From IMG/VR virus record IMGVR_UViG_3300048447_000542, positions 1-20,787 of that record: a stretch of 20,787 nt of DNA, one strand, 5' to 3'. The translations under genes and the position numbers were made by a program. Positions 556 through 20,735 of this stretch are shown piece after piece. Under the pieces are notes generated by a model. It did not search any database. It was not told the origin of the DNA and saw only the letters and a program-made list of their open reading frames with translations. The first letter of the stretch is position 1. Each line of letters starts with the position of its first letter. The stretch is from a virus.

Positions 556-594
556 GCTTCCTAGTAGGCTGAGTTGATAATAAGGTGCATAGTC

Positions 595-1929
595 ATGGCG
601 GCATTAACAACCGACACTCAAATCAAAAGAGCCATTAAAGAGGTCCAAGGCCAAAAGCGCGTCTATCACACTATTGGTGGTTACCAAGGACTTAGATTGC
701 GTATTCGTGGTGGCTGTGTTGAGTTTCAGCACCGCTACACCCACCCTATCACCGGTAAGCGTAAAGAAATGACGCTAGGGCAATATCCTGCATTGACACT
801 TGAGCAGGCAAGACGAGCACACAATGACAATATGAGCATGCTGGCTCAGATGATCGACCCTATCACACAACGCGATAACGAACGGACTAGACAAGCCACT
901 GCTATCACTAATACCTTTAAAGCTGTAGCTAATGATTGGCTCAACGAGCAAATTAGTAACCCTGATCACAAGCCAGCATCTAGCACGTTATCTAATTTTA
1001 AGAATTATCTTTCGCCACTGATGACCACCTTTGGTCATTTACCTGTTGGTGAAATCACTACTCAGCAAGTTCTAGCTTTATGCCGCGAAATTCAAAAGAC
1101 ACACGTTCATAAAGGCAATCGTGTTAAGCATATGGCGCAACGTATCTTTGCTCATGCTGTACTTAAAGGTCTTATCGAATATAACCCAGTCATGCAGCTA
1201 TCAGGTGCCAAAGCATTGAAAGCAACAAGAACTAAGCACTATGCATCGCTGACAGACCCGCAAGACTTCTCAGTATTATTAAGAGATATTGATCAGTTAA
1301 GTAGTAGTCAAATCTACAATAAGCCAATATTACAGCTATTAGCTCTCACGTTTGCGCGTGTAGGTGATGTATGTGCAATGAAATGGGCAGACATTGACCT
1401 GAACGCTAAACAATGGGTGTTTACTCCTCAAAAAGGGCAGAGACGCGAGGACATGGTAGAAAGCCTAGTAGTGCCATTAGCTCCTCAAACCATTGCAATA
1501 ATAAAGAAGTTGCAGCCCCTAACTGGTGGTCATGTTCATGTATTTCATAATTCCTACCGTAAAAAAGCCTCGCATCATGATCCGCAGTCAATTAATAAAA
1601 TATTAAATGACCCATCAATGAACAGCGCCGGCATTGGTATTAACTACGAGGGTAGAGGTTATAAAGATGTACATACACCTCATGGCTTCCGTGCCAGCGC
1701 AAAAACTATGCTGATGGAGCGGCTTGGCTATGATGAACTTATAACCGAAATACAGCTAGGTCACCAAATGCTGAACAAGTACGGCAAAGCATACAACCGC
1801 ATGCAAGCGGTACCGGAACGAACGCGAATGATGACGGACTGGGCCAACTACCTAGACGATATTAAGGCCGGCAAGTTTGATAACGTCATTCATGCCAGCT
1901 TCAAACAACAGACACAGAAGCATGGTTAA
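595..1929 (+). CDS. int: Tyrosine-type phage integrase with N-terminal arm-binding domain
   Basis: The protein (444 aa) is a site-specific tyrosine recombinase that would integrate and excise the element. The N-terminal ~90 residues look like the DUF4102 arm-DNA-binding domain (YQGLRLRIRGG, then KRKEMTLGQYPALTLEQAR), followed by a SAM-like core-binding domain (~105-200) and the catalytic domain. The catalytic set is visible: R255 (ARVGD), K280 (in TPQKGQ), H363 and R366 (HGFR), H390 (LGHQ) and nucleophile Y400 (KAYNR), so it should be active. I chose ATG 595 because AAGG sits 9 nt upstream; a TTG at 574 is in frame but has no ribosome site. It lies beside the TGGTGGTCA cluster and the left direct repeat, as expected for int next to an att site. 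The stop codon lies inside a small hairpin. Confidence 0.93.
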   Translation: MAALTTDTQIKRAIKEVQGQKRVYHTIGGYQGLRLRIRGGCVEFQHRYTHPITGKRKEMTLGQYPALTLEQARRAHNDNMSMLAQMIDPITQRDNERTRQATAITNTFKAVANDWLNEQISNPDHKPASSTLSNFKNYLSPLMTTFGHLPVGEITTQQVLALCREIQKTHVHKGNRVKHMAQRIFAHAVLKGLIEYNPVMQLSGAKALKATRTKHYASLTDPQDFSVLLRDIDQLSSSQIYNKPILQLLALTFARVGDVCAMKWADIDLNAKQWVFTPQKGQRREDMVESLVVPLAPQTIAIIKKLQPLTGGHVHVFHNSYRKKASHHDPQSINKILNDPSMNSAGIGINYEGRGYKDVHTPHGFRASAKTMLMERLGYDELITEIQLGHQMLNKYGKAYNRMQAVPERTRMMTDWANYLDDIKAGKFDNVIHASFKQQTQKHG

Positions 1930-1940: not shown

Positions 1941-1986
1941 AACCACTTTGCAAGGCTAGGACTAATTACCCGAACGACAGCTATTC

Positions 1987-2034
1987 ACACCCTTATGCTG
2001 TCACTGCCTTGCTCCTATTTTGATTTAAGGGTGT
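1987..2034. promoter_or_regulatory. Inverted repeat upstream of gene at 2048
   Basis: ACACCCTTA (1987-1995) and TAAGGGTGT (2026-2034) form a perfect 9-bp inverted repeat with a 30-nt spacer, ending 13 nt before the GTG start of the next gene. It could be an operator or a leader hairpin that controls access to the ribosome site GGGGTGTGAG. No clear -10/-35 pair was found around it. Confidence 0.35.
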
Positions 2035-2047
2035 AGGGGTGTGAGTT

Positions 2048-3298
2048 GTGAGCTTCCAAATATATGTAAACAAAGAGCAAGAGAAGTATGTTTCAGTTTT
2101 AGAGTTTGTTAATAATCTATATAAGCATGCTAGTCCACAAGCGGCTCTAAAAGTAATATTAAATTATTTGTTTGAGCGTTACCAAAAGCCAATTAATGAT
2201 TTAGAACTCTACAAAAAAGAAGAATCTAGCGGTCAATTAACTTTCCATTTAATTGACGTGCCTAGTTCTGAAACCTCTCGATCTATACTTCAACGCATTA
2301 ATAAATGTTTAGATGGCACACAAATTGGACTAAATTTTTCAGATGAATGTCTGAGGCCTTATAAGGAATACTATTTCAAGTTTACAGATGCTTCAGAGTT
2401 CTATAGTTACTTAAGAGCTAACGACTCTGAATCAGAGCTAACTGAAGACAGAGCGAGAGAGCTTTTTAAAGAAGGTGCGATAAAAAAACTAGCTGTCAAT
2501 GATAAGAGGAACACTGCTTTTATGAATAACAGCCTAGCTAGCTATGTTTCTGAGTACACCTTGCCGCAAGTAGTCGCACTAATATTGAATATTGACTTAG
2601 CTGACATAACCACCAATCCAAGCAATAGCTACATTAACGATCTAAACAAGTACGGTGAGGGTGTTTACCAAAAGTTTGAAAACTTACTGCAGTCATACTC
2701 AGTAGCGGCGCTCAATAATAAGCTTGATGGAGTGGACCTGATTACCCGTACAGTAAAAACATATGGTGGCGATACTGAAACTCACATCGACCTTGAAAAG
2801 ACCACTATCGGCAAAAGTAACCTTGCAAGCTACCTATCTAGTATAGGTTGTAACTTAGACGATCTTATAGCCAAACAAGAGCCCATTCATAACCAGAATA
2901 ACAATTATCAGCAAAACGATCCCGAGCTAGTTTCAAGCCTTCAACAACAAGTTGTAGATCTTCAGACTTGTATTGATGAAAAAGACAAAGATCTTAAAGC
3001 TAAGAGTGAAGAGCTAGATGCAGCATTGAAGAAAGTTAAGCAGGCAGGCGCTACTGGCAGTGACAACGAACCACTTAACGAGCGAAGTGAAAGGAGTTAC
3101 CTGAACACTATAGGGTTGTTAATAGAGGTCATGACGGAGCCTAGGACTGAGGGCGGTACCGCGCCATTTGCTAGTGAGGCAATGGTGATTGCCAAGATTG
3201 CCGAAAAGGATATTTATGGACAGAAAAAAACTAAGTTAGGCGAACGATTCAAAGAAGCTAAAGACGCGCTTGCCGACGAGAAGAAGAAGAAACGTTAA
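2048..3298 (+). CDS. Accessory protein of unknown function with coiled coil (416 aa)
   Basis: I do not recognise a characterised family for the whole protein. The soluble N-terminal ~280 residues have no motif I can name. Residues ~292-333 are a highly charged coiled coil, and the C-terminal ~70 residues (from RSYLNTIGLLIEVM) resemble small C-terminal domains seen on accessory proteins of Moraxellaceae and pseudomonad islands, possibly DNA-binding. The tail is very basic (ADEKKKKR). The start is GTG 2048, with GGGGTGTGAG just upstream; no nearer in-frame ATG fits. The gene stands alone between int and the Q remnant, the usual place for cargo genes such as anti-phage or regulatory functions. 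The C-terminal resemblance is from memory and uncertain. Confidence 0.75.
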   Translation: MSFQIYVNKEQEKYVSVLEFVNNLYKHASPQAALKVILNYLFERYQKPINDLELYKKEESSGQLTFHLIDVPSSETSRSILQRINKCLDGTQIGLNFSDECLRPYKEYYFKFTDASEFYSYLRANDSESELTEDRARELFKEGAIKKLAVNDKRNTAFMNNSLASYVSEYTLPQVVALILNIDLADITTNPSNSYINDLNKYGEGVYQKFENLLQSYSVAALNNKLDGVDLITRTVKTYGGDTETHIDLEKTTIGKSNLASYLSSIGCNLDDLIAKQEPIHNQNNNYQQNDPELVSSLQQQVVDLQTCIDEKDKDLKAKSEELDAALKKVKQAGATGSDNEPLNERSERSYLNTIGLLIEVMTEPRTEGGTAPFASEAMVIAKIAEKDIYGQKKTKLGERFKEAKDALADEKKKKR

Positions 3299-3319: not shown

Positions 3320-3363
3320 CAGCACCCCAACTGGGGTGTATTCCTACCCCAACTGGGGTGCTG
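3320..3363 (+). repeat. 44-bp double-hairpin element E1 (before antiterminator Q)
   Basis: The element starts CAGCACCCCAACTGGGGTG and ends ACTGGGGTGCTG. Two tandem CCCCAACTGGGGTG units each can form a hairpin with an AACT loop, and the outer CAGCACCCC/GGGGTGCTG arms can pair instead. Elements of the same length and layout occur at 3946-3989 and 9591-9634, where the arms read CATCCC/GGGATG instead of CACCCC/GGGGTG. The change is compensated in all arms, which argues that pairing or symmetry is kept. Confidence 0.8.
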
Positions 3364-3419
3364 ACAGTCTTGCTATTGCGAATAATGCCCTTGAAGTTAT
3401 CACTACAGGGCATTGGCGC

Positions 3420-3830
3420 ATGATTGACACTAGGAACTTGCAAGATCAGTTAGCCGCATGGGGGGAATGGGTATTAGCTGACGGTTTAGGCTTAGGGTAT
3501 TCAAGCCCAATGGCGGCTATTATGCGCGGTTATGTTGTAGAGCCTTGCAGCCGCAAATAACGCTTTGCCCGTTATATCACTGATGATGATGCTTTAATAA
3601 TTGAAAAGTACGTAACCAAGCTTTGCCAATGCCGTCCATTAGAGGGCAAGATTATAAGATTAAAATACATTGAGCACATGAGCGACCGCGCCATAGCCCG
3701 CGAATACTTAACGCCGCTTAAGTACGGCAAGGATAGCGAAAAGAAAGTAAGCTCAAGCCGAGCTGCCAACCTTATCGCCTATGCAGAGGGCTTTATTATT
3801 GGAGCAATGATTAATGACGGCTACCAATAA
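3420..3830 (+). pseudogene. Phage late antiterminator Q, interrupted by an in-frame TAA
   Basis: From ATG 3420 the frame gives 46 residues (AAWGEWVLADGLGLGYSS is the typical N-terminal part of phage antitermination protein Q), then TAA at 3558-3560, then 89 more residues in the same frame up to TAA 3828-3830. The second part has the Q-family C-terminal pattern: ITDDDALIIEKYV, a helix-turn-helix-like stretch SDRAIAREYL, and RAANLIAYAEGFIIGA. Together they make a ~136-residue protein, a normal Q length. Q lets RNA polymerase read through terminators into late genes. Here it is probably inactive unless the stop is suppressed. A good terminator lies 32 bp downstream and the tape measure gene follows, the expected place for Q control of late genes. 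A sequencing error (for example CAA read as TAA) is possible. Confidence 0.75.
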
Positions 3831-3862
3831 CAACGGTCCTATCACGGTCCGAGAGCCAATTA

Positions 3863-3891
3863 AAGCCTTGCAGTAATGCAGGGCTTTTTTT
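3863..3891 (+). terminator. Rho-independent terminator after Q
   Basis: AAGCCTTGCA (3863-3872), loop GTAA and TGCAGGGCTT (3877-3886) form a 10-bp stem with one G-U pair, followed by a run of seven T (3885-3891). This would block transcription into the tail module unless antiterminated, the classical target situation for a Q protein. Confidence 0.85.
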
Positions 3892-3945
3892 GTGGGCGGT
3901 TGCTGGCAAGAGTGTGGCTAATGCCTATAGCAGAGTTAAGGAAAA

Positions 3946-3989
3946 CAGCATCCCAAATGGGATGGATTGGTGTACCAGTTGGGATGCTG
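3946..3989 (+). repeat. 44-bp double-hairpin element E2 (before tape measure gene)
   Basis: It begins CAGCATCCCAAATGGGATG and ends TACCAGTTGGGATGCTG. The left CATCCC can pair either with the near GGGATG (AAAT loop) or, extended to CAGCATCCC, with the far GGGATGCTG, so two mutually exclusive folds are possible. It lies 59 bp before the tape measure start codon and just after the Q terminator, in the same orientation as E1 and E3. Confidence 0.8.
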
Positions 3990-4014
3990 ATTACTAGCGC
4001 TTTCAACATACTGG

Positions 4015-4045
4015 TAACTCCAACCACGGCATAGCCTAGGAGTTA
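4015..4045 (+). promoter_or_regulatory. Hairpin sequestering the tape measure ribosome site
   Basis: TAACTCC (4015-4021) is the exact reverse complement of GGAGTTA (4039-4045), which contains the Shine-Dalgarno sequence for ATG 4049. Pairing across a 17-nt loop would hide the ribosome site. The complementarity is seen; a regulatory effect is inference. Confidence 0.45.
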
Positions 4046-4048
4046 AGT

Positions 4049-7000
4049 ATGGCAGGAGATTTAGATTTTAGCGTACAGCTACGCGTGCTCAATGAGCAAT
4101 TTAATAACGGCATCAACCAAGCGCGTGACAGATTTACGCAATACGCGCAGTCAGTGCAGCGCAATGTAGCGCAAATGAATACTGATACTGAGCGAGCGAC
4201 TACGCTGCTAGCTGGGCTTGGTAATGCCGCTCCGGATAGACTGACGGCTGAGATTAAAGCTGCCGCTGACCAGCTTAGACAAATGGGCGCAGGTGCCAAC
4301 ATATCAGGCGCACAGATTGAATCGGCCATGCAAACATCGGCGCTACAGGTTACGCGCTTAGGCCGTCAATTAGAAGTTGCCAAGCAAGAGGCAACAAGAT
4401 TAAGTCAGACCAACGCTAGTCCGCAAGATATTGAACGCGCAGCGGCTAACGTAAACCGCTTGGAGCAAGAACTAGGACAAGCCCGCAGCGCTAGTGTCAG
4501 CTTAGCGAATGAGCTATCAGGTGCTATGAACCGCGCAAGCAATACCACAGACGGCGCACGCAATGCCCTTTACCGAATGGCTAACATTCGAGTACCTGAA
4601 ACAATACGCGGTGAGATTGACCAAATAAACCGCGCCTTAATCGATTTCACCAACAACAGCGGAAGACCGGCGGCAGAGATTGAAAGGGCAACACGGGCAG
4701 CACAAGAAGAAATAAGACGGCTTGAACGTGAACTTAATGGCGTTGACGACACAATAAGACGCACGGATGTTAGTACCAATAACTTTAGCAGTAACGTGGG
4801 TAAACTACGCGGTGCGTTTGGCAGCTTGCAAGGGCTATTAGCCGCAGCGGGTTTAGGTATCGGAATATCAGAGATCATACAAACGGCGGATGCGTTTGTA
4901 CTACTAGAAGCCAAAATCAAACTGGCAACAGGTGAAGGCGCGGCGTTCGTTAACGGCTTTAATGGTGTGAAGCAAATTGCCGCCGAGACGTTTAGTAGTG
5001 TAGAAAATACAGGCGAGTTGTTCGCGCGTATCACTCAAGCGTCCGAAGCATTAGGACTCGCACAAAAAGACGTATTAGGCATTACGCAAACGATTAACCA
5101 AGCTATTAAATTATCAGGGGGCAGTGCGGCCAGTGCGGATGCCGCTATTACGCAGTTAATCCAAGGCTTGCAAAGTGGTGTGGTACGCGGGGACGAGTTT
5201 AACTCTATCATGGAGCAAGCGCCAAGACTTGCTCAAGCAATGGCTGACGGTTTAGGCGTAACACGTGGTGAACTACGCGCAATGGCTCAAGACGGCAAGC
5301 TAACGTCAGAGACGGTTATTAATGCGGTACGCTCGCAAGGCGAAGCTATTAGTAAAGAGTTTGAAACGCTACCACAGACCGTTGGCAATGCCGTACAGAC
5401 AATGAAAAACACCTTATTCTTATTCATTGGTGATATTAACGAGGTAGTTAACCAATCCGGCAAAATGGCGGAAGGCATAGACGGCATAAGCGCGGCTATC
5501 AAGAACATTGACCCCGCAACAATGGCAACCCTTAACCTTAAATTTGAGCTAGTCCTCGAAACGGTAGGCGTACTGTTCACCACCATAAAAGACCTTTACA
5601 CAGGCTTTAGCGACCTAATTAGCATCATGGACACCACAGCCCAATCCGGTGAGAAAGTGGGGCTTATAACCAAGACGCTGCAACAAGCTAATATTGCAAT
5701 GGGCGTGCTGATTGATGGCGTAAAAGGCTTTTCAATTATTGCTGATAGTGTGTTTGGAACGATTAGCGGAATTATTGGTAGTGTCTTAATCGGCATCGCT
5801 AAGATAAACGGTGAAACGTCCACTATGGGCGAAGAGCTTATGCGTAAGCAAGAGGAGTTGCACGCCCGCTCAGAGAAAAAGATGATGGAGTTTCAATCAT
5901 CGGCCGGTAAAGCCTGGTCGGAGATGAATAAGACCGCGCAAGACAGGCTTAACGATACCCTTAAGGTGGCAACCGATAATTATGATGAGATGGTCGCAAA
6001 GGGTGGTTATTCAGCCGAAGCGATGGAAGAGCAGTACATCAAAGTAGCAATGGCCAAGATTGCTGCTAACAATATGATTATTAGTGATGATGAGCGCCTG
6101 GCATTAGCCGCTAAAGACTTGCAAGCCACGATCAGTGAAACAGGCGAAGTTACCATTGAGTCATCCAAAGGTGTGCAAGCGGCATACCTTGGCGTTGGTC
6201 AGAGCTTTGCTGAGGTGGCGCTTAAGGCGCAAGTTTCTGGCACATCAATGCGTGAATCGTTGACAGATGCCGTACCGAAGGCACAGACCATTGGCGCGGT
6301 TGACGACATCATATCTTCCCTTAGCGCACTTGGCAGCCAGGGTAAAATATCAGGCGAAGATATGGCGTTTGGTATCAACCTTGCCAATGAACGCTACAAA
6401 GAGATTGAAAGCAACTTTGCAAGATATGCCGCTAAAAGCATTGCAGATAACGGCGGCATTGTAACGTCTGAGCTTGAGAAGGCAGCAGCGTTGCAAGGCT
6501 TGGCGGTACAAGCCACCGAAACTGGCAACGTGCTAGTAACGCAGCTTGATAGATCAACAGTCGCTAGTGGCCGTTCTAAGGATGAAATTGACGCATTAGC
6601 TGGTGCGGTGGGTATTGGTCTATCTAAGGAGTTTATAAAATCCAGTGCTGGACTTGACGAGCTTGTCAGTGGCTTTGATGACTTAGAAAAAGCAGGTTAT
6701 GACGCGAAAGGCGCTTTGGTCGGTGCGCTTAATGAAATGTCCGACAAGGCTAGAAACGAAGTTGAGATTGAAGCATTAACTGCAAGATGGCATGAGCTCT
6801 ACAAAGAAGGGAAGATAACCGGTCAAGAGCTTGCCGAAGGCTTGGAGAGTATAAAAAACCGAGCAGACATACTAAAAAACGGCATTAACGGAGTAACTGA
6901 GGCTTACGGACTCTTAGGACTTAAGACCCGAGAAGAATTGGCCAAAGACGCCAAAGCATACACCGAGTCTTACAAATTGGTCATGGCTGAGGGTAGGCTG

Positions 7001-8119
7001 ACTGCCCAGCAGCAAGAAGAAGTCTTTACAAAGATGGCAAAGGCTAATACCGCTGCTAATGGTGGTGTTATTGATAGCTTTACTAGAGCGCAAGCAGCCG
7101 CTAAAGGTTTTACAGTTGAGGTTGACGAGAACGGGCGCGTAGTTGTTAGCAGAATGGGCGAAGCCAAAGAAGCCAATGACCGTGTGACACGTTCAGTCGG
7201 TAATATTCGCACGGCATACGATGGTATTGCTAGCAGCGCAGGCAGTGCCGGTAACGTCATGGTTAAAGCAGCTAACAATGCTGCATCAGCTTACGACAAG
7301 CTGCAATCTAAGATTGAGGCGGTTAAAAAAGCGCAGGCGGTCGCTAATGAGCGCACGACGATGCAAAACTTGCGGATTTATGGCAAAGAGGAAGCGCCTA
7401 CATTGGGTAATCAATTTGGCTCTAAACTCGCTGTCGAGAACTTCTTAAAATCACAAGGCTTGTCAGAGGCGGCAGCGATTGAAGAAGCGCGTAAACTCTA
7501 TGCGCGGTCAGGCCAGCGTAACGGTTCACTGAATTTTGGTAGCTTACAAGGCTTTCAAGATGGCCAAAACATGACCGCCGCCGATCTCAATCGCTTTAAA
7601 TCAGCATCGGTCTATCTAGCTGAAATTGCAGAAAAGGCGCGTCGGAATGAGCGGCAAGCTGATAGGAACTCAAGGAAAAGCAGTAATAGCAGATCAGTCG
7701 ATAGTAACCCAGTCGAGAATACTACTATCACTAAAGCAAATGCCGAGCAGTACGGCTATGTTTGGGATGATAGAAACAATACAGTAAAATTCGGAGAGGA
7801 GTTCGACAAGCTAAGAGATGCATTTAAGCGTGACCAGGGTAGGCGCGAGCAAGGCTTACCGGAGAGCGCAATAACATCGTACCAAAAGGAGCTGGAGAAG
7901 GTGGCAAAGGTGCCACAGTCGGCGCTTGATGCTATCGGCAGCCTCAGCAAGCAGCCAGGTTACAGCAATAGGTCTAGTAGCGGCCCTATTAAGACTATTC
8001 AGCTTGATCTTACATACAATGGAAACAGAGTCTCAACAGAGATGGGCGCCGACCAAGAAGGCCTACTCATGGCATTGGTAAAAGCACTGCAAGACAGCAA
8101 GGCGATATCAGGTAGTTAG
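4049..8119 (+). CDS. Phage tail tape measure protein (1356 aa)
   Basis: The tape measure protein sets siphophage tail length and takes part in DNA ejection through the cell envelope. The N-terminal ~250 residues are long charged helices. Residues ~260-430 carry the characteristic tape measure N-terminal domain (TIGR02675 type): ALGLAQKDVLGITQTI, SGGSAASADAAITQL, SGVVRGDEFNSIMEQAPRLA and GVTRGELRAM. A hydrophobic stretch follows at ~565-588 (IIGSVLIGIAKI region), and the rest is helical with repeat-like segments. Length is normal for a siphophage. The start ATG 4049 has TAGGAGTTA upstream. No tube, portal, capsid or tail tip gene is next to it, and the chaperone genes lie downstream rather than in their usual upstream place. 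Identification is firm; whether it serves this element's own particle is unknown. Confidence 0.93.
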   Translation: MAGDLDFSVQLRVLNEQFNNGINQARDRFTQYAQSVQRNVAQMNTDTERATTLLAGLGNAAPDRLTAEIKAAADQLRQMGAGANISGAQIESAMQTSALQVTRLGRQLEVAKQEATRLSQTNASPQDIERAAANVNRLEQELGQARSASVSLANELSGAMNRASNTTDGARNALYRMANIRVPETIRGEIDQINRALIDFTNNSGRPAAEIERATRAAQEEIRRLERELNGVDDTIRRTDVSTNNFSSNVGKLRGAFGSLQGLLAAAGLGIGISEIIQTADAFVLLEAKIKLATGEGAAFVNGFNGVKQIAAETFSSVENTGELFARITQASEALGLAQKDVLGITQTINQAIKLSGGSAASADAAITQLIQGLQSGVVRGDEFNSIMEQAPRLAQAMADGLGVTRGELRAMAQDGKLTSETVINAVRSQGEAISKEFETLPQTVGNAVQTMKNTLFLFIGDINEVVNQSGKMAEGIDGISAAIKNIDPATMATLNLKFELVLETVGVLFTTIKDLYTGFSDLISIMDTTAQSGEKVGLITKTLQQANIAMGVLIDGVKGFSIIADSVFGTISGIIGSVLIGIAKINGETSTMGEELMRKQEELHARSEKKMMEFQSSAGKAWSEMNKTAQDRLNDTLKVATDNYDEMVAKGGYSAEAMEEQYIKVAMAKIAANNMIISDDERLALAAKDLQATISETGEVTIESSKGVQAAYLGVGQSFAEVALKAQVSGTSMRESLTDAVPKAQTIGAVDDIISSLSALGSQGKISGEDMAFGINLANERYKEIESNFARYAAKSIADNGGIVTSELEKAAALQGLAVQATETGNVLVTQLDRSTVASGRSKDEIDALAGAVGIGLSKEFIKSSAGLDELVSGFDDLEKAGYDAKGALVGALNEMSDKARNEVEIEALTARWHELYKEGKITGQELAEGLESIKNRADILKNGINGVTEAYGLLGLKTREELAKDAKAYTESYKLVMAEGRLTAQQQEEVFTKMAKANTAANGGVIDSFTRAQAAAKGFTVEVDENGRVVVSRMGEAKEANDRVTRSVGNIRTAYDGIASSAGSAGNVMVKAANNAASAYDKLQSKIEAVKKAQAVANERTTMQNLRIYGKEEAPTLGNQFGSKLAVENFLKSQGLSEAAAIEEARKLYARSGQRNGSLNFGSLQGFQDGQNMTAADLNRFKSASVYLAEIAEKARRNERQADRNSRKSSNSRSVDSNPVENTTITKANAEQYGYVWDDRNNTVKFGEEFDKLRDAFKRDQGRREQGLPESAITSYQKELEKVAKVPQSALDAIGSLSKQPGYSNRSSSGPIKTIQLDLTYNGNRVSTEMGADQEGLLMALVKALQDSKAISGS

Positions 8120-8217
8120 CGTAAATGAGGTGGGCTTAGGTCTCACTTCAGCAATATATTTATCAAGATAAAAACAACGGACAAAACCTTAATTCAAACT
8201 ATATAGAGACTATGCAC

Positions 8218-8652
8218 ATGACAGACATTAAAAAAGACGATAGCAGCAAGGTTATCGAAGTAGTTGGGCAAGAGATCACAATCAATCGCGTCAAAGTTAA
8301 AAACTTGACCGAGGTTACGCGCGCCTTTCAACCGTTCGTTAAAGAGTTTGAACGCATTGTCAAAGCCAAGAAAAGCATGCCACAAGATGAGCTGATGAAT
8401 TTAATCGGTACATTTGCTGATGAGGCGGTATTGCTTGCAACGGTATTGACCGACCAAAGCAGTGAGTTTTACCGTGAGCTTGAGCCGTTAGACTTCTTTA
8501 CGGTCATGCAGGAGGTGGTAGCGCATAGCGGTGATTTTTTTTTGAGACAGGTTTTCACACCCCTAAAACAATTGGGAGCGCAACTGGCGTTACTTGGTAC
8601 GACAGCTTATTACCATTCTACCGCCTCGGACTCCGAGAGCACGATGTCTTAG
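8218..8652 (+). CDS. Phage tail assembly chaperone (short, unshifted product, 144 aa)
   Basis: This small acidic protein begins MTDIKKDDSSKVIEVVGQEI and runs to a C-terminus containing AHSGDFFLRQVF. The layout (β-rich start, helical middle, VVAHSGDFF near the end, then a second overlapping frame) is that of tail assembly chaperones of siphophages, which coat the tape measure protein before tail tube polymerisation (lambda gpG type). ATG 8218 is preferred to ATG 8212 because the conserved-looking sequence starts there; the ribosome site AGAGAC is weak. The T9 run at 8535-8543 gives a -1 frameshift into the next frame. Such genes normally lie just upstream of the tape measure gene; here the order is reversed. 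Family assignment is by architecture and from memory. Confidence 0.65.
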   Translation: MTDIKKDDSSKVIEVVGQEITINRVKVKNLTEVTRAFQPFVKEFERIVKAKKSMPQDELMNLIGTFADEAVLLATVLTDQSSEFYRELEPLDFFTVMQEVVAHSGDFFLRQVFTPLKQLGAQLALLGTTAYYHSTASDSESTMS

Positions 8653-8789
8653 ATATGGCGTTTGGCGAGTGGTGGGGCTTGTCTAAGGCGCTGGCAAAAG
8701 ACAAGCGGCAGCAACTCAAAGATATGGCGATCGCTATGCGAGTATCACAGGCTGATGCGAAAGATTGGAAGGAGTTTATGAAAGACTAG
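8535..8789 (+). CDS. Frameshift extension of tail chaperone (gpGT-like part)
   Basis: A second frame, -1 to the chaperone, is open from the T9 run to TAG 8787-8789. Its last upstream stop (TGA 8532-8534) touches the T run, so the open frame begins exactly at the slippery site T TTT TTT (8535-8541). The product after the shift contains LLPFYRLGLREHDVLDMAFGEWWGLSKAL, typical of the second chaperone open frame in siphophages, and ends KDWKEFMKD. There is no ATG before 8655 and that ATG would drop the YRLGLREHD part, which favours a programmed -1 shift producing a ~190-residue fusion. Independent initiation at 8655 (44 aa) is the alternative. Confidence 0.6.
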   Translation, partial: FFFETGFHTPKTIGSATGVTWYDSLLPFYRLGLREHDVLDMAFGEWWGLSKALAKDKRQQLKDMAIAMRVSQADAKDWKEFMKD

Positions 8790-8799
8790 CGTAACACTG

Positions 8800-8834
8800 T
8801 TCAACCGACTAAAATTGAGTAAATATAATTTACT
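8800..8834 (+). promoter_or_regulatory. Promoter with palindromic operator before lipoprotein gene
   Basis: A consensus -10 TATAAT lies at 8824-8829 with a weak -35 (TTCAAC, 8800-8805) 18 bp upstream. The -10 is embedded in the inverted repeat AGTAAATATAATTTACT (8818-8834), arms of 7 bp, so a repressor could act here. The 11-mer TATAATTTACT is also found at the -10 region of the repressor gene on the minus strand (20763-20753). Confidence 0.5.
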
Positions 8835-8845
8835 GAGTGTTTACT

Positions 8846-9442
8846 ATGAAGTCTTTGTTGGTTGTGGGATTGGTCGTAGCTCTAAGCGGTTGCGGAGAGT
8901 TTAAAGAATTGCCGCCACAGGTCAGTAATGGCAATGGTGGAACGGTTGGCGCCGGTAGCACTTACCCTCAAGGCGATAAAGAGGATGGTAACTGGCGTTA
9001 TTCATCTGTTAAGAATAGCGGCGGAGAGGTGTTTAATGCGAAAGCAGAGAACAGTGCGATAAATACCTATCCCGATCCTGAGGTGAGTGGATTAAATGCA
9101 AGACCGTTTGTTATTGCTGAAAGACAACGATTATTGCCTAGCACTGCGTCGGAATCGATAAAGATATTTACAGGATCAGCGGTAGCTTGTGTTCCAACGT
9201 GCCAGATACCTATAAAGTTTAATAGCAATAGGCAAAGTTATTTGATGCAGTACAGCACACTTGATGAGGTTTTGGTGCCCGTTAGCGCAGAAGTAGGTAA
9301 AGATTTATTTGATAAATTTACAAGATCCAATTCAGCAGTAATAACCCTGCCTATCATTGGTCTTAGCGATAAAGTTGATTCTGAGTTTAATCTTAGAGGT
9401 TACGAGGCAGATAGAATGAAACTCAGCATAGATAGCTTATAA
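8846..9442 (+). CDS. Predicted phage-encoded lipoprotein (moron-like, 198 aa)
   Basis: The protein starts MKSLLVVGLVVALSGCGEF, a lipoprotein signal with lipobox LSGC and lipid-anchored Cys16, so it should sit in the outer or inner membrane. A Gly/Asn-rich linker follows and then a domain I do not recognise, with two further cysteines in CVPTCQ. I prefer ATG 8846 to GTG 8837 because it begins the signal peptide. With its own promoter, operator-like palindrome and terminator it has the layout of a moron, a gene expressed from a prophage independently of the lytic programme. Phage lipoproteins next to tail genes often block superinfection (such as Cor), but that role here is only a guess. Confidence 0.75.
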   Translation: MKSLLVVGLVVALSGCGEFKELPPQVSNGNGGTVGAGSTYPQGDKEDGNWRYSSVKNSGGEVFNAKAENSAINTYPDPEVSGLNARPFVIAERQRLLPSTASESIKIFTGSAVACVPTCQIPIKFNSNRQSYLMQYSTLDEVLVPVSAEVGKDLFDKFTRSNSAVITLPIIGLSDKVDSEFNLRGYEADRMKLSIDSL

Positions 9443-9454
9443 TTTTTGGTTAAA

Positions 9455-9520
9455 AAACCGTTGAGCAGATAGCGGTTTCTCTTCTCAAGCACAGCTCCCC
9501 TTGTCCGGGGGGCTTTTTTT
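9455..9520 (+). terminator. Tandem terminator hairpins after the lipoprotein gene
   Basis: A first hairpin pairs AAACCG (9455-9460) with CGGTTT (9473-9478). A second and stronger one pairs AGCTCCCC (9493-9500) with GGGGGGCT (9507-9514; one G-T pair) and is followed by a T run to 9520. The second is a standard rho-independent terminator separating the lipoprotein unit from the early operon. Confidence 0.85.
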
Positions 9521-9590
9521 ATGTCCAAAATTTGAGATGAGTGCAAATGCTAGCCTTTTTTAATGCCAGAAATTTACCCAAAGTAATAAA

Positions 9591-9634
9591 CAGCATCCCA
9601 TTTGGGATGTTTCTACGTACCAGTTGGGATGCTG
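9591..9634 (+). repeat. 44-bp double-hairpin element E3 (before early operon)
   Basis: It begins CAGCATCCCATTTGGGATG and ends TACCAGTTGGGATGCTG, with the same spacing as E2 and the central TAC-CCAGTTGGGATGCTG part nearly identical to E2. It lies 74 bp before the AlpA-like gene. As in E2, the left CATCCC has two possible partners. Confidence 0.8.
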
Positions 9635-9708
9635 GGGAACATTTGAATAGCTAAGCTGATAACAGTTAATCACATTAATCCATACCATTACATAGGAGTT
9701 AGCAAATC

Positions 9709-9972
9709 ATGCTGCAAGTCTCAGACAATCCCCAAACCGCAAAAGAATTACACCCCCAGGGTCAAACCCGTATTAAAGCAGCGGCCAAACTGGTAGGAGT
9801 GCATCATCAGACACTTCGTCGTTGGTGGAAAAAAGATAAATTCCCTAAACCGATAGATATTAATGGAATTCTACTATTTAAAAATTCTGATTTACTTGAC
9901 TGGTTGGCTAGCCACAAGCCGTGCGCTGATAACAACCAAGTCATAAGCGCTACGCAGACTACGGGAGCATAA
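9709..9972 (+). CDS. AlpA/excisionase-type helix-turn-helix protein (87 aa)
   Basis: Residues ~20-80 read TRIKAAAKLVGVHHQTLRRWWKKDKFP...LLFKNSDLLDWLASHK, the winged helix-turn-helix pattern of the AlpA/MerR-like excisionase family, which binds DNA to control integrase expression or excision. It is the first gene of the + strand early operon and follows element E3. Ribosome site TAGGAGTTAG is 10 nt before ATG; the same TAGGAGTTA precedes the tape measure gene. The next gene starts two bases after its stop. It could be an excisionase for the integrase or an early-gene activator; the sequence does not decide. Confidence 0.8.
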   Translation: MLQVSDNPQTAKELHPQGQTRIKAAAKLVGVHHQTLRRWWKKDKFPKPIDINGILLFKNSDLLDWLASHKPCADNNQVISATQTTGA

Positions 9973-19979: not shown

Positions 19980-20735
19980 TTACCTATACCTAGTTAACTT
20001 ACTGTCTACGATGCCAACAAGCATACATTCGCCCATAGGTATGATTTTCTGATCAGGCCAGTCTTTATTTAAAGGCTTTAAGTACATATCGTCAGGACTA
20101 TCACCAATGATGAGCTGCTTAAACGTGGCTTGCTTGTCATCGTTACAGTGTATGACAATAAGCGCGCCATCCTTCAGCTCTAGCGGTGATATCTCAGGCT
20201 CAACATAGATGATCTCACCAGGCTTAAAGTCAGGCCACATACTACGGCCCTCAATAACTAAGCCAAAAGCTCTAGATGATAAATTGCTAGGTCTATCAAT
20301 CCATTCGATAGCGTCATCTATAGTAACTGGCATCACATCAGAAAAACTACCGGCGGCTACCCAACTAATTACTGGCATTTGGCCTGTCATACCGTGATCG
20401 ACTGGGACCTTCTTAGTGCCTGCGGGAGTGTCTATCGAATCGTTAGATAAATCACTACTTTGCATTGCGTCTATCTTTGCACGTAACTCATTCACTGTGG
20501 GCTTACTTTTAACTACTTCGCCATACTCAAGGTAAGCGGCCGACACGCCAAGCGTATTACTAAGTTTTTGCATACCCTTGCTTCTTGGTTTAGCAAAGCC
20601 TTCGCAATAGCGCCTTATCATCTCGTAGCTAATATCAGTCCTGGAGCTTAGGTCCATACGATCTAAACCTTTTGCATCCATAGACAGCTTAAGCCTTTTC
20701 GCAAATTCTTGATGTTTTATCTCTAGTTCGCTCAT
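19980..20735 (-). CDS. CI/LexA-type phage repressor with HTH and S24 peptidase domain (251 aa)
   Basis: The N-terminal XRE-type helix-turn-helix (~10-70; LDRMDLSSRTDISYEMIRRY...LSNTLGVSAAYLEYG) binds operators. The C-terminal domain (~118-250) is a LexA/CI S24 self-cleaving peptidase: cleavage site Ala128-Gly129 (WVAAGS), catalytic Ser165 (GRSMWP) and Lys206 (ATFKQL) are present, so RecA-stimulated self-cleavage and SOS induction are expected. GAGGTAGGAT lies 5 nt before ATG 20735. The downstream small protein, excalibur and lipoprotein genes would be expressed in the lysogen with it. The usual divergent cro-like gene would lie to the right, beyond the window, while the early operon present here is far away. 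Confidence 0.92.
   Translation of the reverse strand: MSELEIKHQEFAKRLKLSMDAKGLDRMDLSSRTDISYEMIRRYCEGFAKPRSKGMQKLSNTLGVSAAYLEYGEVVKSKPTVNELRAKIDAMQSSDLSNDSIDTPAGTKKVPVDHGMTGQMPVISWVAAGSFSDVMPVTIDDAIEWIDRPSNLSSRAFGLVIEGRSMWPDFKPGEIIYVEPEISPLELKDGALIVIHCNDDKQATFKQLIIGDSPDDMYLKPLNKDWPDQKIIPMGECMLVGIVDSKLTRYR

Follow-up and report, generated by a model that had tools for sequence, protein, structure and literature searches.

Architecture of the locus

The window analyzed here is the whole of the virus record IMGVR_UViG_3300048447_000542 from IMG/VR, 20,787 bp in length. It contains three 44-bp double palindromes, all on the + strand in the same orientation, which are putative operators preceding three groups of genes. 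The first of these elements, E1 (3320..3363), is 56 bp upstream of the start codon of a Q antiterminator gene (3420..3830, +; PF06530, E 3e-15; target operon 1). E2 (3946..3989) is 59 bp upstream of the start codon of a gene for a tape measure protein (4049..8119, +; PF20155, E 5e-60; phrog_12706; target operon 2), and E3 (9591..9634) is 74 bp upstream of that of a gene for an AlpA-like helix-turn-helix (HTH) protein (9709..9972, +; PF12728; phrog_66, excisionase and transcriptional regulator), the first gene of a replication operon (target operon 3). Upstream of all three, a tyrosine integrase gene (574..1929, +; PF00589, PF13356, PF22022) is adjoined on its 3' side by an orphan open reading frame (ORF) encoding a 416-amino-acid protein (2048..3298, +). 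The interpretation favored here, with a probability of about 0.7, is that E1, E2 and E3 are operators bound by the product of this orphan ORF, which would activate all three operons.

The lengths, orientation, coordinates and distances of the three elements, as given in a first-pass annotation of the window, were reproduced in a scan with the exact pattern. Paired copies of CAGCAYCCCA...TGGGRTGCTG were found only at E1-E3 in the 20,787-bp record, and the reversed pattern, used as a control over the same record, had 0 matches. With up to one mismatch allowed, CAGCAYCCCA was found seven times where 1.85 matches were expected, a number that none of 100 shuffled sequences reached; six of the seven were arms of E1-E3, and the seventh (19452) was a single half-arm within an ORF. 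Each element consists of two palindromes of approximately 14 bp with the consensus AYCCCANNTGGGAT, spaced 22 bp from center to center, which is two turns of the DNA helix. The right-hand palindrome is imperfect in E2 and E3 (TACCAGTTGGGAT), and the unit is therefore not a three-armed hairpin but a pair of palindromic half-sites 22 bp apart. The annotation had also noted a compensated C/T change between E1 and E2/E3, which is real, and two mutually exclusive folds; such folds follow trivially from a repeated palindrome. The 20 available copies of this type of element, referred to below as class A, gave the half-site consensus A-Y-C/A-CCA-NN-TGGGAT. Positions A6, T9, G11, G12 and T14 of the right half-site were invariant in all 20, and the left half-site was looser.

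Promoter geometry

A degenerate criterion for the -10 hexamer, A at position 2 and T at position 6, identified a -10-like hexamer beginning exactly 17 bp past the element in 20 of 20 class-A elements. At every other offset at most 8 copies had the required A and T, and in 5,000 shuffles the highest count at any offset was 9. In the window the hexamers are AATAAT (3381..3386, +) for the Q promoter, CATACT (4007..4012, +) for the tape measure promoter, and TAAGCT (9652..9657, +) for the AlpA-operon promoter; CATAAT and TAATAT are also among the class-A hexamers. If the hexamer is taken as the -10 box, the element extends from -73 to -30 and the half-sites are centered at -62.5 and -40.5 in all 20 copies. 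A -35 box was not apparent at class-A elements, where the hexamer 17 bp 5' of the -10 box matches TTGACA at just 2 to 4 of 6 positions, and a sigma-70 promoter scan called no promoter at E1-E3. Elements of a second class, B, have a -10-like hexamer at offset 23 or 24 (8 of 8 elements), and their right palindrome is centered near -41 to -42.

At the class II sites of activators such as CRP, FNR, and lambda CI at PRM, the dyad is near -41, there is no -35 box, and there is sometimes a second site upstream. The features of a class II promoter are found in the sequences analyzed here, namely a dyad near -41.5 at a fixed distance from the -10 box and no functional -35 box. Because unrelated operators, those of classes A and B, occupy the same activator position, a common mechanism can be argued, and the -40.5 position together with the missing -35 box favors activation over repression.

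Operator class and the C-terminus of the orphan protein

A search with the AlpA-like protein yielded 12 loci in Psychrobacter genomes and 6 viral contigs. The elements found in these at the same position 5' of the HTH gene are palindromic or repeated and belong to several mutually unrelated classes. The three plasmids pA37P2, pA17P3 and pA52P5 have the gene order of the window (integrase, orphan ORF, Q, further genes, HTH) with double palindromes preceding each of Q, a large gene, and the HTH gene; those of two plasmids are class A and those of the third are GGTCACATGACCGTCATGTGACC. Among relatives of the orphan protein the N-termini are variable, and the C-terminus is one of several domains.

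The class of element was found to follow this C-terminal domain. A position matrix trained on E1-E3 alone gave best scores of 25.8 to 52.4 in all nine other loci encoding a class-A C-terminus and of -18 to -2.6 in all 18 remaining loci (Mann-Whitney p 1.7e-5, uncorrected for shared ancestry). Seeds taken from a single locus likewise ranked the loci with the same C-terminus at the top, with clear gaps, for classes B (4/4), C (2/2), D (1/1) and F (2/2). Similarity of the promoter regions was correlated with similarity of the C-termini (Mantel r 0.75); in partial Mantel tests the correlation was 0.71 for the C-terminus given the N-terminus and 0.26 for the N-terminus given the C-terminus. Natural swaps have the same pattern. 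Locus L026 combines the N-terminus of L014/L027 (59-60% over 178 amino acids) with the C-terminus (74%) and operators of L028, and L034 combines the N-terminus of L015 (45%) with the C-terminus (60%) and operators of L014. In 12 of 12 loci with two or three elements, a single class was used throughout, with the regulator gene as much as 6.3 kb away, which simple linkage does not explain.

The other candidate readers were eliminated. AlpA had been suspected because its recognition helix differs in L014, but L027 and L028 encode AlpA proteins that are 100% identical over 72 amino acids, in near-identical flanks, and their C-termini and operators differ: the two loci diverge just in the stretch containing element and promoter, where one has class B and the other class D. 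Q was ruled out by loci that have class-A sites but no match to Q (L020, L032, L060, L061 and L064). With AlpA and Q excluded, the orphan ORF following the integrase is the remaining candidate.

This led to a prediction, for which the class-A C-terminus alone was searched in 349 Moraxellaceae genomes. Five further genomes were found (L060-L064), and all of them had class-A sites 3' of the orphan gene, including L060, in which the downstream genes are unrelated to AlpA or Q. Scanning 17 whole Psychrobacter genomes with a degenerate class-A pattern located sites in seven of seven genomes with a class-A regulator, at these operons only, and in one of ten genomes without such a regulator; there were 1-2 copies per genome, and reversed-pattern controls over the same 17 genomes had 0 matches. 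A separate exact-pattern scan of IMG/VR returned 10 stretches with unrelated flanks and other spacings, which were treated as chance matches.

The candidate regulator

Pfam, PHROGs, NCBIfam, and PADLOC contained no credible match to any of the 22 orphan regulator proteins tested. The protein in the window is predicted to have a variable N-terminus, a coiled coil, and a C-terminal three-helix domain, and the portion of the gene coding for the class-A C-terminal domain (3056..3298, +) is, from its covariation with operator class, the likely determinant of DNA binding. In an AlphaFold model of the 416-amino-acid protein there are helices at 292-335 (long), 345-363, 377-386 and 394-415, an arrangement compatible with a coiled-coil dimer bearing small helical DNA-binding domains. 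A model of the L027 regulator was discarded as too poor, with a mean predicted local distance difference test (pLDDT) score of 38.

Proposed mechanism and alternatives

The case for the orphan protein as activator is built on the multiple copies of the element, their position before operons, the constant -10 spacing, the lack of a -35 box, the covariation with the C-terminus, and the restriction of the sites within whole genomes. From these observations we infer physical binding, activation rather than repression, dimerization, and a sensing role for the N-terminus. Two protein dimers could bind to one face of the DNA at half-sites two helical turns apart, with the C-terminal helical domain reading the operator. 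The coiled coil ahead of this domain probably dimerizes, and the N-terminus, which is different from element to element, probably senses or binds something. Positioned at -40.5 and -62.5 and replacing the -35 box, the regulator would recruit RNA polymerase and thereby switch on Q, the tape measure module, and the AlpA-replication operon jointly.

Several observations weigh against this interpretation. The loci share ancestry, and the p-values do not come from independent samples. L066, the sole partner of the class E seed, was missed by it; a clear element could not be discerned in L025, L036 or L065; and ahead of Q, L019 yielded no element and L016 a weak one. In genome G012 (L067), the exception in the genome-wide scan, the HTH gene is preceded by a class-A site and the regulator has another C-terminus. 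The C-terminal helices of the AlphaFold model have pLDDT scores of only about 70-83 and the mean for the whole model is 51; Foldseek returned no significant match for the model of the window protein, and an HTH fold is not established. Comparison of profiles for C-terminal classes A, B, and C/D detected no homology to one another, and there is no operator 5' of the regulator gene itself.

In L067 (5950-6440), two copies of the repeat GGTGGCACCTTAAGCYGCCACC are located 3' of the regulator gene and are followed by the class-A site before the HTH gene. This is possibly a mixed locus, either between classes or carrying the remnant of a lost module.

The strongest alternative retains the same protein and the same sites, but has the protein silence the operons as a master repressor until a helper phage or signal is present, in the manner of Stl, the repressor of Gram-positive phage-inducible islands. 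One regulator with sites before every operon would be expected of such a system, and the highly variable N-terminus would suit titration by different helper proteins. However, the sites are upstream of the -10 box and not over it, and this placement, with no TTGACA-like -35 box, makes the promoters look activator-dependent. The record also already encodes a CI-like repressor (19980-20735), and we consider repression by the orphan protein unlikely.

An appreciably smaller chance is given to the elements being loading sites for an antiterminator, either the orphan protein or Q, comparable to the Q binding element or the AlpA binding element of Pseudomonas aeruginosa. Q is among the regulated genes, there are terminators between the modules, and some AlpA proteins are antiterminators (PMC7969949). 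The Q and AlpA binding elements, however, are located between the -35 and -10 boxes (PMC7969949), whereas the present elements extend from -73 to -30 at promoters without a -35 box, and neither Q nor AlpA can be the reader, given the loci lacking Q and the comparison of L027 with L028.

The first-pass annotation had left three possibilities side by side: a leader switch, a regulator binding site, or a recombination site. The second is the one that the present data favor; its putative partner, the orphan ORF at 2048..3298, had gone unnoticed in the annotation. A leader whose transcript alternates between two exclusive hairpins is very improbable. The inverted repeats do permit folding, and the change in E1 is compensated, but the element is upstream of the predicted transcription start in 20 of 20 copies and so falls outside the transcript of its own promoter; moreover, the class of element tracks a protein domain, and no Rfam family matched in the window at the gathering threshold. 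Recombination sites that shuffle modules as cassettes are more improbable still. As the annotation's idea of cassette borders would have it, the blocks between elements do differ among relatives (Q, the tape measure gene, a gene for a 726-741-amino-acid protein, or none), but an operator and a promoter simply come with each module. In related loci the same positions are taken by element classes that are not homologous, the element-promoter stretch alone differs between the near-identical flanks of L027 and L028, and the -10 spacing is kept in every class-A copy, leaving the recombination mechanism unsupported. A scattered repetitive extragenic palindromic (REP)-like repeat or miniature mobile element, though also short, palindromic, and multi-copy, has a negligible probability: the scatter of REP- or terminator-like copies that the annotation had asked about was searched for genome-wide, and the 1-2 copies per genome were confined to these operons with one exception, with none in 9 of 10 genomes without a class-A regulator.

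Predicted leader RNA of the candidate regulator gene and loci outside Psychrobacter

Between the integrase gene and the regulator gene is a structured leader (1949..2031, with the region extending to 2047; +) that resembles the int-alpA RNA. It matched the RF02996 model over its full length, between int and alpA, with 18.5 bits (E 0.076), which does not reach the gathering threshold of 35.8; at that threshold no match was found in 11 further Psychrobacter-group loci. The leader is kept at the same place, 5' of the regulator gene, in 27 other loci. It has a helix formed by GCAAGGC/GCCTTGC and a second, variable helix whose changes are compensatory, and its loop is complementary to two successive downstream repeats, the second of which is at the ribosome binding site. 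These features suggest an RNA of the int-alpA type in which two pseudoknots compete. An inverted repeat at 1987-2035 had been considered as the phage attachment site attP and was dropped, as it belongs to this leader.

RF02996 was found at threshold in 29 of 391 Pseudomonadales genomes. In 19 of the 20 Pseudomonadales loci that were fetched, a variable ORF was directly 3' of the int-alpA RNA, and this was usually followed by an AlpA-like gene. Among the loci from outside the genus (L088-L107, L110 and L111), strong palindromes were present right 3' of the ORF in L090 (CTAATTAG, twice), L092 (TTGCANNTGCAA, twice), L096 and L105, and also in L110 and L111. The regulator C-terminus of L092 resembles class A; when the C-termini of L092 and L089 were searched for relatives outside Psychrobacter, almost no close ones were found. 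Enrichment of palindromes 3' of the regulator gene was weak, with p ≤ 0.05 in 5 of 17 non-Psychrobacter loci and 9 of 28 loci of the Psychrobacter set. With just 5 of 17 significant, the generality of the system outside Psychrobacter is suggestive only: a layout of integrase, int-alpA RNA, variable ORF, and alpA, often with palindromes, appears across the Pseudomonadales and may represent the same system.

Relationship to known regulatory systems

The class-A promoters are like class II promoters in having a dyad near -41, no -35 box, and a second upstream site. They differ in that the two half-sites are 22 bp apart, that the predicted reader is outside the families of Pfam, PHROG, NCBIfam, and PADLOC, and that predicted reader and operators switch class together among relatives. 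Ogr of phage P2 and Delta of satellite P4 are activators that act at dyad sites before several late operons, and the multi-operon dyad layout of the window is similar, whereas the position and sequence of the sites are different. The leader is like the int-alpA RNA of RF02996 in matching the whole model and in its int/alpA location, and differs in its score, which is below threshold.

In Gram-negative phage-inducible chromosomal islands controlled by AlpA, the integrase gene is near an AlpA-type regulator gene (PMC6092414, PMC11773190). An integrase gene near that of an AlpA-like protein is shared by the window, but here a variable candidate regulator is encoded between integrase and alpA, putative operators precede alpA and other operons, and a tape measure gene and a tail chaperone gene are carried. 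In satellite AH14b of Pseudomonas sp. ANT_H14, the integrase gene is followed by a 318-amino-acid ORF and then alpA (PMC4936722); unlike the orphan protein of the window, the product of that ORF is annotated as HflK/C-family, and no operator is described for AH14b in the part of that paper considered here.

A broader proposal is put forward tentatively, at less than even odds: that these proteins are modular master regulators and form a family, undescribed and widespread, that phages, satellites, and integrative plasmids encode between integrase and alpA. The C-terminal DNA-reading domain would be swapped together with all of the operators, giving mutually exclusive specificity groups like those of lambdoid immunity, the N-terminus would sense signals from helper phage or host, and an RNA of the int-alpA type, in which two pseudoknots compete, would gate translation. 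If this is true, the missing switch for alpA would be the modular master regulator. A protein of no known family is encoded just 5' of alpA, and a matching predicted operator precedes alpA and every other module, so one protein and one 44-bp site would suffice to test how alpA is switched on. Putative orthogonal regulator-operator pairs would be available ready-made from the natural domain swaps, and a probable function is suggested for the ORFs adjoining int-alpA RNAs across the Pseudomonadales, in the loci sampled.

Other genes and module context

The Q gene of the window has an in-frame TAA (3558-3560), and intact relatives are present in L014, L015 and L016. Operon 2 also contains genes for a tail assembly chaperone (8212..8652, +; phrog_1442, E 6e-16) and, from its sequence, a putative lipoprotein with no PHROG match (8837..9442, +). 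Further genes in the window encode O-like, DnaC-like, and DnaB-like replication proteins, in addition to the CI-like repressor mentioned above. No terminase, portal, or capsid gene was found among the ten larger ORFs scanned, but tail genes are present, and the record may be a fragment; by its gene content the window looks like a satellite or a fragment.

Loci related to the window are found in several settings. L014, L015 and L016 are RepM plasmids of Antarctic Psychrobacter with the integrase-regulator-Q-HTH module, which indicates that the element family spans integrated and plasmid forms. In L035 (8792-12668) and L036 (8507-12147) the integrase-regulator-HTH module is in phage genomes, where Q and then terminase genes follow. 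A protein of 726-741 amino acids, with no PHROG match in L015 or L016, is encoded in the slot of the window's tape measure gene in L015 (6070-8295), L016 (4979-7174) and L019 (6919-9099). L020, L032 and L064, like the window (4049-8652), have their own tape measure gene and no detected head genes, and the window also has the tail chaperone.

The nearest named DNA sequences are all from Psychrobacter (phage vB_PmaS_Y8A and three plasmids), and positions 8197-8782 of the window are 76.5% identical to vB_PmaS_Y8A. On the minus strand of the window, 18203-19114 matches the candidate defence family PDC-S42 (E 6e-70) and phrog_3243. In L031, an sRNA-Xcc1 (RF02221) was identified at the gathering threshold at 5546-5633, 3' of the HTH genes.

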